Positions 55,903-59,797 of a stretch of DNA of 64,000 nt are shown one piece after another. Made by a program: the position numbers and the translations under genes. Every line of letters starts with the position of its first letter. Positions within the stretch are counted from its first letter, which is position 1. Origin of the DNA: Faecalibacterium sp. An122 (lineage in GTDB: Bacteria; Bacillota; Clostridia; Oscillospirales; Ruminococcaceae); NCBI RefSeq assembly GCF_002160895.1, contig NZ_NFLL01000002.1, forward strand, positions 124,001 to 188,000, written 5' to 3'. The notes under the pieces were generated by a model. That model made no database searches. It was given only the letters and a program-made list of their open reading frames with translations, and was not told the origin of the DNA.

Positions 55903-56325
55903 ATGAAGAAACTTTTTTCCATTTATAAAAAGGATATGTTCCGCGCGATCCTGTATAAAACGGTGACACGCGCATCCGTCGCCCTGTGCGTCTGCCTGCT
56001 GTGGGAACGTTTTTTAAGCGACGGACACTTCACCATCTGGGAAGCCCCCTGCCTGGCGGTGGGGGCGATCTTCCTGGGGTGGGCCTGGCTCAGCTACCTG
56101 CGGCTGGACGGGGTCCGGGTTCCCTTCCTGGACCGGGACAAGCTGTCGTCGGAACGCGGACAGCGCCGCAGCCACGCCAGCCACACCATGGCGGACTTTG
56201 CCGACGAGAAGATCGTCTCCTTTGACGAGCTGTCCCCGGAGGAAAAGTCCTTTTGCAGCATGCTGTCCAGCCTGATCCTGGGGGTCCCCATGACCGCCAT
56301 CGGGCTTCTGGCCGGCGTTCTGTGA
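55903..56325 (+). CDS. Small membrane protein, unknown
   Basis: 140 residues starting MKKLFSIYKKDMFRAILYK. Two hydrophobic helices near the N-terminus (about 25-40, 49-65), a basic soluble stretch with HASHTMADFADEKIVSFDEL, and a C-terminal helix (SLILGVPMTAIGLLAGVL). GGATGAGG lies about 11 nt before the ATG. It ends 11 nt before the GTPase-nuclease gene and probably shares its transcript. I do not recognise the family. Confidence 0.72.
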   Translation: MKKLFSIYKKDMFRAILYKTVTRASVALCVCLLWERFLSDGHFTIWEAPCLAVGAIFLGWAWLSYLRLDGVRVPFLDRDKLSSERGQRRSHASHTMADFADEKIVSFDELSPEEKSFCSMLSSLILGVPMTAIGLLAGVL

Positions 56326-56336
56326 GGAGGGCGGCC

Positions 56337-58913
56337 ATGGCAGACAAGACAAAGCGCCTGGTGGTGGGGGTGCTGGCCCACGTGGACTCGGGCAAGACCA
56401 CCCTGTCCGAGGCCATGCTCTACCGGGCCGGGGCCATCCGCAAACTGGGCCGTGTGGATCACCGGGACGCCTTCCTGGACACCGACAGCCTGGAGCGGGC
56501 CCGGGGCATCACGATTTTTTCCAAACAGGCCCTGTTCGAGACCGAAAACGCCTGCATCACCTGGCTGGATACGCCGGGCCATGTGGATTTCTCGGCAGAG
56601 GCCGAGCGTACGGTCCAGGTGCTGGACTATGCGGTGCTGGTCATCAGCGGCCCCGACGGGGTCCAGAGCCACACCGAGACCATCTGGTCCCTGCTGCGGC
56701 GGTGCCGGGTGCCTACCTTCCTCTTTATAAATAAGATGGACCTGCCCGGCCCCGGCCGGGATGCCCTGCTGGACCAGCTGCGCCGGCGGCTGGGGGAGGG
56801 CTTTGTGGATTTCGGCGCCGATGAGGACCAGCGCAATGAGGCCCTGGCCCTCTGCGATGAACATTTGATGGACGCCTACCTGGCCGGGGAACCCCTGGCC
56901 GAAACCGACATCGTCACTGCCATTGCCCGGCGGCACGTCTTTCCCTGCTGGTTCGGCTCAGCCCTCAAGGTGGATGGGGTGGACGCTCTGCTGGCAGGCC
57001 TGGACCGCTGGACCCGGCCTGCCCCGGCAGGAGAACACTTCGGGGCCAAGGTGTTCAAGGTCTCCCAGGACGACCAGGGAGCCCGCCTCACCTGGCTGCG
57101 GGTCACCGGCGGCGTCCTGAAAGTCAAGGATACCCTGTCCGGCGGCCCCGAGGGAGAGGGCTGGTCCGCCAAGGCCGACCAGCTGCGGCTGTATTCGGGA
57201 GCCAAGTATACCCTGGCCAATGAGGTGGTTCCCGGCCAGGTCTGCGCCGTCACCGGCCTCACCGGAGCCAAGCCCGGAGAGGGTCTGGGGGCCGAGCGGG
57301 ATGCCGGGGACCCCCTGCTGGAACCGGTCCTCACCTACCAGGTGATTTTGCCCCAGGGAGTGGACGTTCATACCGCCCTGGCCAACCTCCGCCGCATCGA
57401 GGAGGAGGAACCCGAGCTCCATGTGGTGTGGGATGAGACTCTGGGCCAGATCCATATTCGGCTGATGGGTGAAATTCAGCTGGAAGTGCTGCAGAGCCTG
57501 CTGTCCCGCCGGTTCGGGCTGGACGTCACTTTCGGTGAGGGCGGCATCCTTTATAAAGAGACCATTGCCGAGGCGGTGGAGGGTGTGGGCCACTATGAGC
57601 CCCTGCGCCACTATGCCGAAGTGCATTTGAAGATGGAGCCTCTGCCCCCGGGCAGCGGCATCCAGTACGATATCGACTGCCGGGAGGAAGTTCTGGCCCG
57701 GAACTGGCAGCGGCTGGTCATCGCCAACCTGGAGGAAAAGGAACACCGGGGCATCCTCACCGGCGCGCCCCTCACCGACGTGAAAATCACCCTCATCGCC
57801 GGCCGGGCCCACCTCAAGCACACCGAGGGCGGCGACTTCCGCCAGGCGGCGCTGCGGGCGGTGCGTCAGGGCCTGATGATGACCAAAAACGTCCTGCTGG
57901 AGCCCTGGTATCACTTCCGGCTGGAACTGCCCGCCCAGAACCTGGGCCGGGCCATGAACGACATCCAGCAGATGGAGGGAACCTTCGGTCCCGCCGACCA
58001 GGAAGGGGAGACTGCCATTCTGGAGGGTTCGGCGCCGGTCAGCGGCCTGCGGGGTTATCCCCGGGAGCTGGCAGGCTATACCCATGGCCGGGGCCGCCTG
58101 ACCCTCACCCCCGACAGCTACCGCCCCTGCCGCAACGCCGCCGATCTCATCGCCGCGTCGGGCTATGACCCCGAGCGGGACCTGGAAAACCCCGCTGACT
58201 CGGTGTTCTGCGCCCACGGCGCCGGGTATGTGGTGCCCTGGGACAAGGTGCGGGAGCATATGCACGTGGAGAGCGGCTGGGGCAAGGCCAAGCCCGCCCG
58301 GGCCGAGGACCCGCAGCCGGTGCGGCGGGCGGCGGCCTTCCGGGCCTCCCTGGAAAACGACGCCGAGCTGATGAAAATCTTCGAGCAGACCTATGGCCCC
58401 ATCAAGCGGGACCCTCTGGCGGCCTTCCGACCGGTCAAGAACGACCGGCCCGACTTCAACGCCGAACAATGGAAGGTGCTGCCGGAATATCTGCTGGTGG
58501 ACGGCTACAACATTATTTTTGCCTGGGATGACTTGTCCGCCCTGGCCAGGGACAACCTGGCCTCGGCCCGCCAGAAGCTGATGGACATTCTGTGCAACTA
58601 TCAGGGGTTCAAGCAGTGCGTGCTGATCCTGGTGTTTGACGCCTACCGGGTGCCGGGCAGCCCTGGCTCCATCGAGCAGTACCACAACATCCATGTGGTC
58701 TACACCCGGGAGGCCGAGACGGCGGATATGTTCATCGAGCGGGTCACCCATGAGATCGGCCGGGAGCGCCGGGTCCGGGTGGCCACCTCGGACGGCATGG
58801 AACAGGTGATTATCCTGGGCCACGGGGCGTACCGGTTGTCGGCCCGTCAGTTCCGGGAGGAAGTGGATGAGGTGGAGCGGGAGATCCGCGCCCTGATCCG
58901 CCAGGAGGAGTGA
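56337..58913 (+). CDS. EF-G/TetM-like translational GTPase fused to a YacP/Rae1-like NYN nuclease domain
   Basis: 858 residues. Residues 1 to about 650 form a ribosome-protection/EF-G-type GTPase: AHVDSGKTT (about 14-22), ERARGITI, DTPGHVDF (about 79-86), NKMD (about 132), then domains II-V with GAPLTDVKITLIAGRAH in the domain IV region. After a linker, residues about 715-858 are a NYN/PIN-like domain of the YacP (Rae1) family, with acidic residues D722 (LLVDGYNII), D768 (LVFDAY), D797 (ETADMF) and D819 (ATSDGMEQ). Rae1 of Bacillus subtilis cuts mRNA in the ribosomal A site, so one polypeptide may both bind and cleave on the ribosome. GAGGAGGG precedes the ATG. Confidence 0.88.
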   Translation: MADKTKRLVVGVLAHVDSGKTTLSEAMLYRAGAIRKLGRVDHRDAFLDTDSLERARGITIFSKQALFETENACITWLDTPGHVDFSAEAERTVQVLDYAVLVISGPDGVQSHTETIWSLLRRCRVPTFLFINKMDLPGPGRDALLDQLRRRLGEGFVDFGADEDQRNEALALCDEHLMDAYLAGEPLAETDIVTAIARRHVFPCWFGSALKVDGVDALLAGLDRWTRPAPAGEHFGAKVFKVSQDDQGARLTWLRVTGGVLKVKDTLSGGPEGEGWSAKADQLRLYSGAKYTLANEVVPGQVCAVTGLTGAKPGEGLGAERDAGDPLLEPVLTYQVILPQGVDVHTALANLRRIEEEEPELHVVWDETLGQIHIRLMGEIQLEVLQSLLSRRFGLDVTFGEGGILYKETIAEAVEGVGHYEPLRHYAEVHLKMEPLPPGSGIQYDIDCREEVLARNWQRLVIANLEEKEHRGILTGAPLTDVKITLIAGRAHLKHTEGGDFRQAALRAVRQGLMMTKNVLLEPWYHFRLELPAQNLGRAMNDIQQMEGTFGPADQEGETAILEGSAPVSGLRGYPRELAGYTHGRGRLTLTPDSYRPCRNAADLIAASGYDPERDLENPADSVFCAHGAGYVVPWDKVREHMHVESGWGKAKPARAEDPQPVRRAAAFRASLENDAELMKIFEQTYGPIKRDPLAAFRPVKNDRPDFNAEQWKVLPEYLLVDGYNIIFAWDDLSALARDNLASARQKLMDILCNYQGFKQCVLILVFDAYRVPGSPGSIEQYHNIHVVYTREAETADMFIERVTHEIGRERRVRVATSDGMEQVIILGHGAYRLSARQFREEVDEVEREIRALIRQEE

Positions 58914-58915
58914 CC

Positions 58916-59797
58916 ATGGAGCATCTTTGTGAGGAATTCGTCTTTTCCTGCATCGCCCCCCGGGCGCAGGAGAGCCATAAGGGCAGCTACGGCCACCTGC
59001 TGGAGGTGGCAGGCAGCCGCCGCTATCGGGGCGCCGCCGGCCTGGCCGCCGAGGGGGCCCTGCGCACCGGCGCAGGTATTGTAACCCTGGCGTCGGTGGA
59101 GCCGGTGCTGGCGGCGGTGGCCGCCCGCCTGCCCGAATGCTGCCTGCTGCCCTGTCGGGAAAGCGAGGAGGGCGGCATCCACGCCGGGGAGGCGGACAAC
59201 CTGTCCCAGGCTCTTCAGAAGGCCGCCGTCCTCCTGATGGGCCCCGGCATGGGCAACACCACCCACACCCAAAACCTGGTCCGCCGCCTGGTGGGAGAGG
59301 CCAGGGGAACGGTGGTGCTGGACGCTGACGGCCTGAACGCCGCCGCGGCTTTGATGGCGGCCGGGGAACCCCTGCCCCGCCCGGCGGGCAGCCTGATTTT
59401 GACCCCTCACCCGGGGGAGATGTCCCGCCTCTCCGGTCTGACCATGGCGGAAATTGCCGCCGATCCCGCCGGGACGGCGACCCGCTTTGCGGCCCAATGG
59501 GGCTGCACCCTGGTGCTGAAGGGCCACCGCACCCTGATCGCCGCGCCGGATGGCCGCCTGTGGCAGAACACCACCGGCAATGCGGGCCTTTCCCGGGGCG
59601 GCAGCGGGGACGTGCTGGCGGGCATGGTCAGCGGGCTGGCGGCCTGCGGCCTGCCTGCCCCGGAGGCGGCAGCCTGTGCCGTCTGGCTCCATGGAGCCGC
59701 CGCCGACCGCACCGCCGGACGTTTGGGTCAGTATGGGATGCTTCCCCACGACATTCTGGCCGATTTGGGCGAAATCTTCGCAGAGCATGACCGATAA
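58916..59797 (+). CDS. nnrD: ADP-dependent NAD(P)HX dehydratase
   Basis: 293 residues; repairs hydrated NAD(P)H, using ADP or ATP. Ribokinase-like fold with KGSYGHLLEVAGS, the LMGPGMGN motif, LTPHPGEMSRL and the anion-hole/catalytic NAGLSRGGSGDVLAGM. No YjeF N-terminal epimerase (NnrE) domain is fused here. The ATG at 58916 lies 2 nt after the upstream stop, sharing its GGAGGAG, so it is coupled to the GTPase-nuclease gene. Confidence 0.92.
   Translation: MEHLCEEFVFSCIAPRAQESHKGSYGHLLEVAGSRRYRGAAGLAAEGALRTGAGIVTLASVEPVLAAVAARLPECCLLPCRESEEGGIHAGEADNLSQALQKAAVLLMGPGMGNTTHTQNLVRRLVGEARGTVVLDADGLNAAAALMAAGEPLPRPAGSLILTPHPGEMSRLSGLTMAEIAADPAGTATRFAAQWGCTLVLKGHRTLIAAPDGRLWQNTTGNAGLSRGGSGDVLAGMVSGLAACGLPAPEAAACAVWLHGAAADRTAGRLGQYGMLPHDILADLGEIFAEHDR

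Follow-up and report, generated by a model that had tools for sequence, protein, structure and literature searches.

The closest described relatives of the gene considered here include a ribosome-associated nuclease and a group of translational GTPases. Rae1 (YacP) of Bacillus subtilis is a stand-alone protein with about 170 residues that cleaves mRNA in the ribosomal A site (PMC6613710; PMC12320835), and the substitution R166P in its C-terminal tail causes loss of function (PMC6613710). NYN domains were originally proposed to act in the maturation of rRNA and tRNA (as cited in PMC4342817). The tetracycline resistance proteins Tet(M), Tet(O) and Tet(W) share a five-domain layout with EF-G; loop III of domain IV of Tet(M) is thought to displace the drug, with Pro-509 located in the drug site (PMC4750697; PMC8161019). 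Tet(M) with the substitutions S508A, P509A and V510A can retain activity, and a loop sequence by itself is therefore no proof of function. A combination of both parts was reported by Atkinson 2015 (PMC4342817), who found a YacP NYN domain attached to Tet-like GTPases of ten Clostridiales species, filed these proteins under the Tet subfamily and suggested that they confer resistance by a mechanism involving RNase activity. The architecture is thus already known. A GTPase fusion that replaces Rae1 points to a partner in the recruitment of Rae1 to particular ribosomes; a single protein also allows recruitment, GTP hydrolysis and mRNA cutting to be tested together. The literature searched contains no experiment on the function of the fusion protein.

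We analysed a stretch of 64,000 nucleotides from Faecalibacterium sp. An122, here called the window, which contains a gene of this architecture (Table 1). As proposed in an earlier sequence-only reading, one frame of 858 residues joins the GTPase to the NYN domain: the translation has one stop, at its end, and both parts are recognized by Pfam. The GTPase half (residues 8-600) is of the EF-G type, with all five G motifs (G1 AHVDSGKTT, G2 RGITI, G3 DTPGH, G4 NKMD, G5 GSALK), which are near-invariant across the fused family, as well as domains II to V. Within loop III of domain IV, residues K494 to R502 are invariant in the fused-family alignment. The extension that follows domain V is common to NYN-free relatives of the GTPase and missing in Tet proteins and EF-G. 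The best Foldseek matches of the predicted structure are ribosome-bound EF-G (E 1e-54), with TetM (3j9y) ranking lower. Two bases after the stop codon follows the ATG of a gene for an NAD(P)H-hydrate dehydratase (58916-59797). On the other side, a small frame of 140 residues (55903-56325), for which no Pfam match was obtained, ends 11 bases 5' of the fusion gene and is possibly co-transcribed with it. Long open frames are also present on the opposite strand, as expected for G+C-rich coding DNA.

Table 1. Coordinates in the window of the fusion gene and its parts; residue numbers refer to the fusion protein.
Feature	Position	Strand	Basis or remark
Whole gene: translational GTPase, linker, NYN nuclease	56337..58913	+	858 aa + stop, single ORF
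Shine-Dalgarno-like AGGAGG, 5' of ATG	56325..56330	+	sequence reading
G domain, residues 8-225	56358..57011	+	PF00009 GTP_EFTU, E 2.2e-46 (Pfam)
Domain II, residues 237-310	57045..57266	+	PF22042 EF-G_D2, under cut-off; model beta-rich
Domain III, residues 330-400	57324..57536	+	PF14492 EFG_III
Domain IV, residues 404-515	57546..57881	+	PF03764 EFG_IV, E 5.8e-18
Domain IV loop I, GHYEPLRHYAEVH (418-430)	57588..57626	+	alignment; mostly invariant; Tet equivalent PPNPFWAS
Domain IV loop III, GRAHLKHTEGGDFR (489-502)	57801..57842	+	alignment; Tet(M/O/W) equivalent GLYYSPVSTPADFR
Domain V, residues 519-600	57891..58136	+	PF00679 EFG_C, E 3.4e-18
GTPase C-terminal extension, 601-645, ..SVFCxHGAGxxVxWxxVxxxMH	58137..58271	+	alignment
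Linker, 649-716, largely disordered	58281..58484	+	pLDDT < 50 at 651-672 and 684-713
Linker helix motif ELMKIFEQTYG (677-687)	58365..58397	+	conserved; found in fused proteins only
YacP/Rae1-type NYN domain, 719-856	58491..58904	+	PF05991, E 2.7e-49; 5mq8/5mq9, E 9e-24
D722, predicted metal-binding acid	58500..58502	+	invariant
D768, predicted metal-binding acid	58638..58640	+	invariant
D797, predicted metal-binding acid	58725..58727	+	invariant
D819, predicted metal-binding acid	58791..58793	+	invariant

The suspicion that a frameshift or a sequencing or assembly error has joined two separate genes can practically be dismissed, since the identical single-frame architecture recurs in independent assemblies whose proteins are 87% and 93% identical to that of the window (L056 and L057). 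Both parts are present in 100 of 100 fetched loci, and the single frame is found throughout these loci, except in L072, as well as in the majority of those genomes of the window's order that gave a match. In L072 (1834-4528) the copy is broken by a stop and its parts lie in two frames. Among the window gene and its 87% and 93% orthologs, dN/dS ranges from 0.07 to 0.13 in the GTPase and from 0.12 to 0.18 in the NYN domain; both halves are therefore under purifying selection.

A profile search of the C-terminal region, the check suggested by the sequence-only reading, places residues 719-856 inside the family NYN_YacP (PF05991) with 167.8 bits against a cut-off of 24.6. The four acidic residues named in that reading (D722, D768, D797 and D819) were correctly assigned: none of them varies among 92 fused sequences or in an alignment of 38 fused and 36 free NYN domains. 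The closest match of the NYN half in the PDB is B. subtilis YacP/Rae1, which aligns over chain residues 4-140 and keeps all four acids. Unlike the free Rae1, the NYN domain of the window is joined to a GTPase and, like other fusions of its type, stops near Rae1 residue 140, so that the C-terminal tail is missing; it covers positions 1-140 or 1-142 of the 166 positions of PF05991 and is hence not a complete copy of the domain, unlike the Lachnospiraceae-type fusions, which extend to positions 164-165. Either the GTPase half substitutes for the role of the tail, or the activity of the domain is altered. A Rae1-type, ribosome-linked nuclease role is predicted for the fusion with high confidence.

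The relation of the GTPase half to the Tet proteins requires a separate discussion. Public records label such genes as "TetM/TetW/TetO/TetS family" or "translation factor GTPase family protein", and the best NCBIfam matches of the fusion are indeed Tet-type profiles. Together with the filing by Atkinson 2015 (PMC4342817), these matches form the case for a tetracycline ribosomal protection protein equipped with a nuclease, as proposed in 2015 for the relatives and implied by automatic annotation. All matches nevertheless remain under the respective cut-offs (384 of 775 bits for tet_protect, 249 of 1100 bits for TetM/W), and the identity to Tet(M), Tet(O) and Tet(W) is about 30% over 600 residues. 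We calculated a GTPase tree (quick search, LG+G4, with a long-branch warning on one EF-G row) from fused proteins and NYN-free GTPases together with EF-G, Tet(M), Tet(O), Tet(W) and the Tet protein that the window's genome encodes. The fused GTPases group in a single clade (SH-aLRT 100) that is joined to the NYN-free GTPases; the Tet proteins form a clade of their own (SH-aLRT 100) on a long branch, and the fusion falls outside it. The tip of domain IV differs as well. Fused proteins have LRHYAEV in loop I and AHxKHTEGGDFR in loop III, and NYN-free relatives carry loops of the same type, whereas the Tet versions, NPFWAS and YYSPVSTPADFR, are absent from the fused clade. In the window protein, AHLKHTEGGDF and LRHYAEV thus stand against YYSPVSTPADF and NPFWAS in Tet, so that both loops, including loop III, which is held to displace the drug (PMC4750697; PMC8161019), are wholly unlike those of Tet(M/O/W). 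Finally, the same genome encodes elsewhere a genuine TetM/TetW/TetO/TetS-type protein (L004; G000:C56, approximately 116006-116353), which exceeds both cut-offs with 819 bits (tet_protect) and 1284 bits (TetM/W). A protection protein with added nuclease is accordingly very improbable.

The description of the first half as an EF-G/TetM-like GTPase therefore holds with respect to a complete EF-G-like GTPase and fails with respect to the TetM type. A role on drug-bound ribosomes, also suggested in the sequence-only reading, finds no support in the profile score, the clade, the tip or the presence of a separate Tet protein, and drug-sensing by the fusion protein is unlikely. Its warning that a tetracycline-resistance label would overlook the nuclease was justified. 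For resistance annotation in gut Clostridia this means that a housekeeping-like factor is counted as tetracycline resistance. The proteins of Atkinson 2015 (PMC4342817) have the same architecture, occur in the same bacterial group and are almost certainly the same family; in contrast to their assignment to the Tet subfamily and a resistance mechanism, we find a clade apart, another tip and a replacement of Rae1. As far as the literature searched shows, with the main Rae1 papers outside it, the replacement of free Rae1, the separation from Tet, the single origin, the motif in the linker and the sister GTPases without an NYN domain are new. A third group of Tet-like GTPases (L157, L177, L178, L179 and L181) is closest to Tet in the tree; four members whose loops were printed have the tip HHxxHTHPLDF and PKPCWA in loop I, and L157, the only member scored, is under the Tet family cut-off.

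The distribution of the NYN domain points to an exchange of one form for the other. The genome of the window (99.9% complete) has this gene as its only NYN_YacP gene, and a separate yacP, whose loss the sequence-only reading had proposed to survey in Oscillospiraceae, is missing across the order: 60 of 138 genomes have an NYN domain, in no case as a free gene, although shared descent inflates this and all other counts of fused and free forms. The frames are at least 833 residues long in 58 of these 60 genomes and truncated (465 and 478 residues) in the other two; one genome of the order has an additional NYN fragment of 43 residues. Neither form is present in the remaining 78 genomes. Class-wide, NYN_YacP matches occur in 250 of 393 genomes, and the 150 matches listed, a partial count made up of the stronger matches, comprise 81 fused, 65 free and 4 intermediate frames. 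Among the class matches listed, a single genome (G284) has both forms intact; additional NYN matches are below the cut-off in G120, G174 and G208 and are fragments in G370. The fusion is common in Clostridia and kept across many families, and in the lineage of the window it stands in for free Rae1, each form replacing the other.

On the GTPase tree the fusion has a single origin, and a single clade of fused NYN domains is not rejected in the NYN tree (p-AU 0.73). Four families (f22, f23, f28 and f47) have both fused and free genomes among the matches listed. In one of them, f23, a single genome (G018) carries a fused gene that groups in the tree with the fused genes of other families, the other genomes listed being free. 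The mixed families and this tree position suggest that the fused gene may have been transferred between families and replaced the free one. A fusion with 73.5% identity (L215; MT835563.1, 5415-7964) occurs on an unverified, unannotated faecal contig named "Bacteriophage sp.", which is possibly bacterial DNA. An origin from a mobile element or phage was considered and rejected, as this one record is insufficient for phage carriage.

Each half of the protein is well modelled by AlphaFold2 (mean pLDDT 81), and no fixed arrangement of, or interface between, the halves is predicted (pTM 0.53). The linker has no Pfam match, and its assignment to a known domain was discarded. It does contain a helical motif, D-K-E-L-x-x-I-F-E-R-T-Y-G-P-[IV]-K, whose strict pattern is present in 64 of 92 fused proteins; the rest have mostly recognizable variants and a few have lost it (e.g. 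L125). The motif is absent from 29 non-fused GTPase rows and from 297 short frames of free-Rae1 loci.

We propose that the fusion is a chromosomal translation factor that takes over the task of free Rae1 in the lineage of the window by means of a GTP-coupled hand-off, a reading to which we assign a probability of roughly 0.4. The EF-G-like half would dock at the factor site of a ribosome that has paused with an open A site, where the KHTxGGDF tip of domain IV would engage the decoding centre; GTP hydrolysis would then pull domain IV out of the A site, and the NYN domain, on its flexible tether of about 70 residues, could move into the vacated site and cut the mRNA codon. The cut mRNA would be handed to a tmRNA-type rescue. 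The ribosome binding, the order of events, the cutting and the rescue are what we infer. The proposal builds on the intact GTPase and nuclease motifs, the proximity of the NYN half to Rae1 in the PDB, the non-Tet tip, the replacement of free Rae1, the monophyly of the fused GTPases, the predicted disorder of the tether and the low dN/dS. In their published poses domain IV of Tet and EF-G would take up the same A site as Rae1, which makes simultaneous action doubtful and a hand-off the simplest use of both halves. Against the hand-off stands the missing tail in which R166P kills the function of Rae1. The absence of both forms from 78 of 138 genomes in the order likewise argues against it, as it marks the function as dispensable.

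Fusion might also serve co-expression or targeting only, such that the GTPase acts generally in elongation or back-translocation and the NYN domain is an ordinary, tethered Rae1 that is uncoupled from GTP hydrolysis. The flexible linker and the lack of a predicted interface are compatible with this simpler arrangement, as is the occurrence of each domain alone elsewhere; the conserved linker helix of the fused proteins and the retention of the fusion in many families suggest a tighter tie, and we consider the arrangement rather unlikely. Still less likely is a factor for ribosome or RNA maturation, in which the NYN domain would trim precursors of rRNA or tRNA and the GTPase would check subunits. 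The rae1 gene of B. subtilis is co-transcribed with yacO, which encodes an rRNA methyltransferase (PMC6613710), as would fit such a factor, but experiments on Rae1 indicate translation-dependent cleavage of mRNA (PMC6613710; PMC12320835), and rRNA genes do not recur as neighbours of the fused genes. No conserved neighbourhood was found among 89 loci, a set that did not include the window's own neighbours: the largest neighbour cluster is present in 10 of them, in mixed positions.

The NYN-free relatives bear on the hand-off from both sides. These GTPases of about 650-670 residues are found in Bacillota, including plasmids of Ligilactobacillus salivarius, and have 38-51% identity to the GTPase of the fusion. 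The clostridial members aligned share its HYAEV/KHTxGGDF tip and its C-terminal extension; they differ from the fusion in having neither linker motif nor NYN domain. They occur in 15 tested genomes with free Rae1, a gene-pair signal that is confounded by shared descent, as many of the 15 belong to a single family, and most of the clostridial genomes checked that have an NYN-free GTPase also have a separate Rae1. The occurrence as separate genes in some genomes and as a fusion in others is suggestive of a shared pathway, though no more than that. Two genomes of the window's order (G178 and G288) possess the NYN-free GTPase and no YacP at all, which argues that the GTPase is able to act alone. 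Conversely, many genomes with free Rae1 from several families (e.g. G206, G094, G095 and G072) lack this GTPase, so that Rae1 can be independent of it. Both observations count against the hand-off.

A broader reading, tentative and doubtful at present, is that the KHTxGGDF subfamily constitutes a GTP-driven rescue factor that brings a nuclease of the Rae1 type to paused ribosomes, either in cis (fused) or in trans (separate). If true, the factor would be dedicated and GTP-driven, unlike any known translational GTPase, and the free Rae1 of many Bacillota would also have an unrecognized GTPase partner. The GTPases of G178 and G288 (L163 and L164) branch next to the fused clade in the tree, not within it. 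On an L. salivarius plasmid (L213, 3535-5926) the NYN-free GTPase gene is located head to head with rpsN (S14) and a putative metal homeostasis gene.
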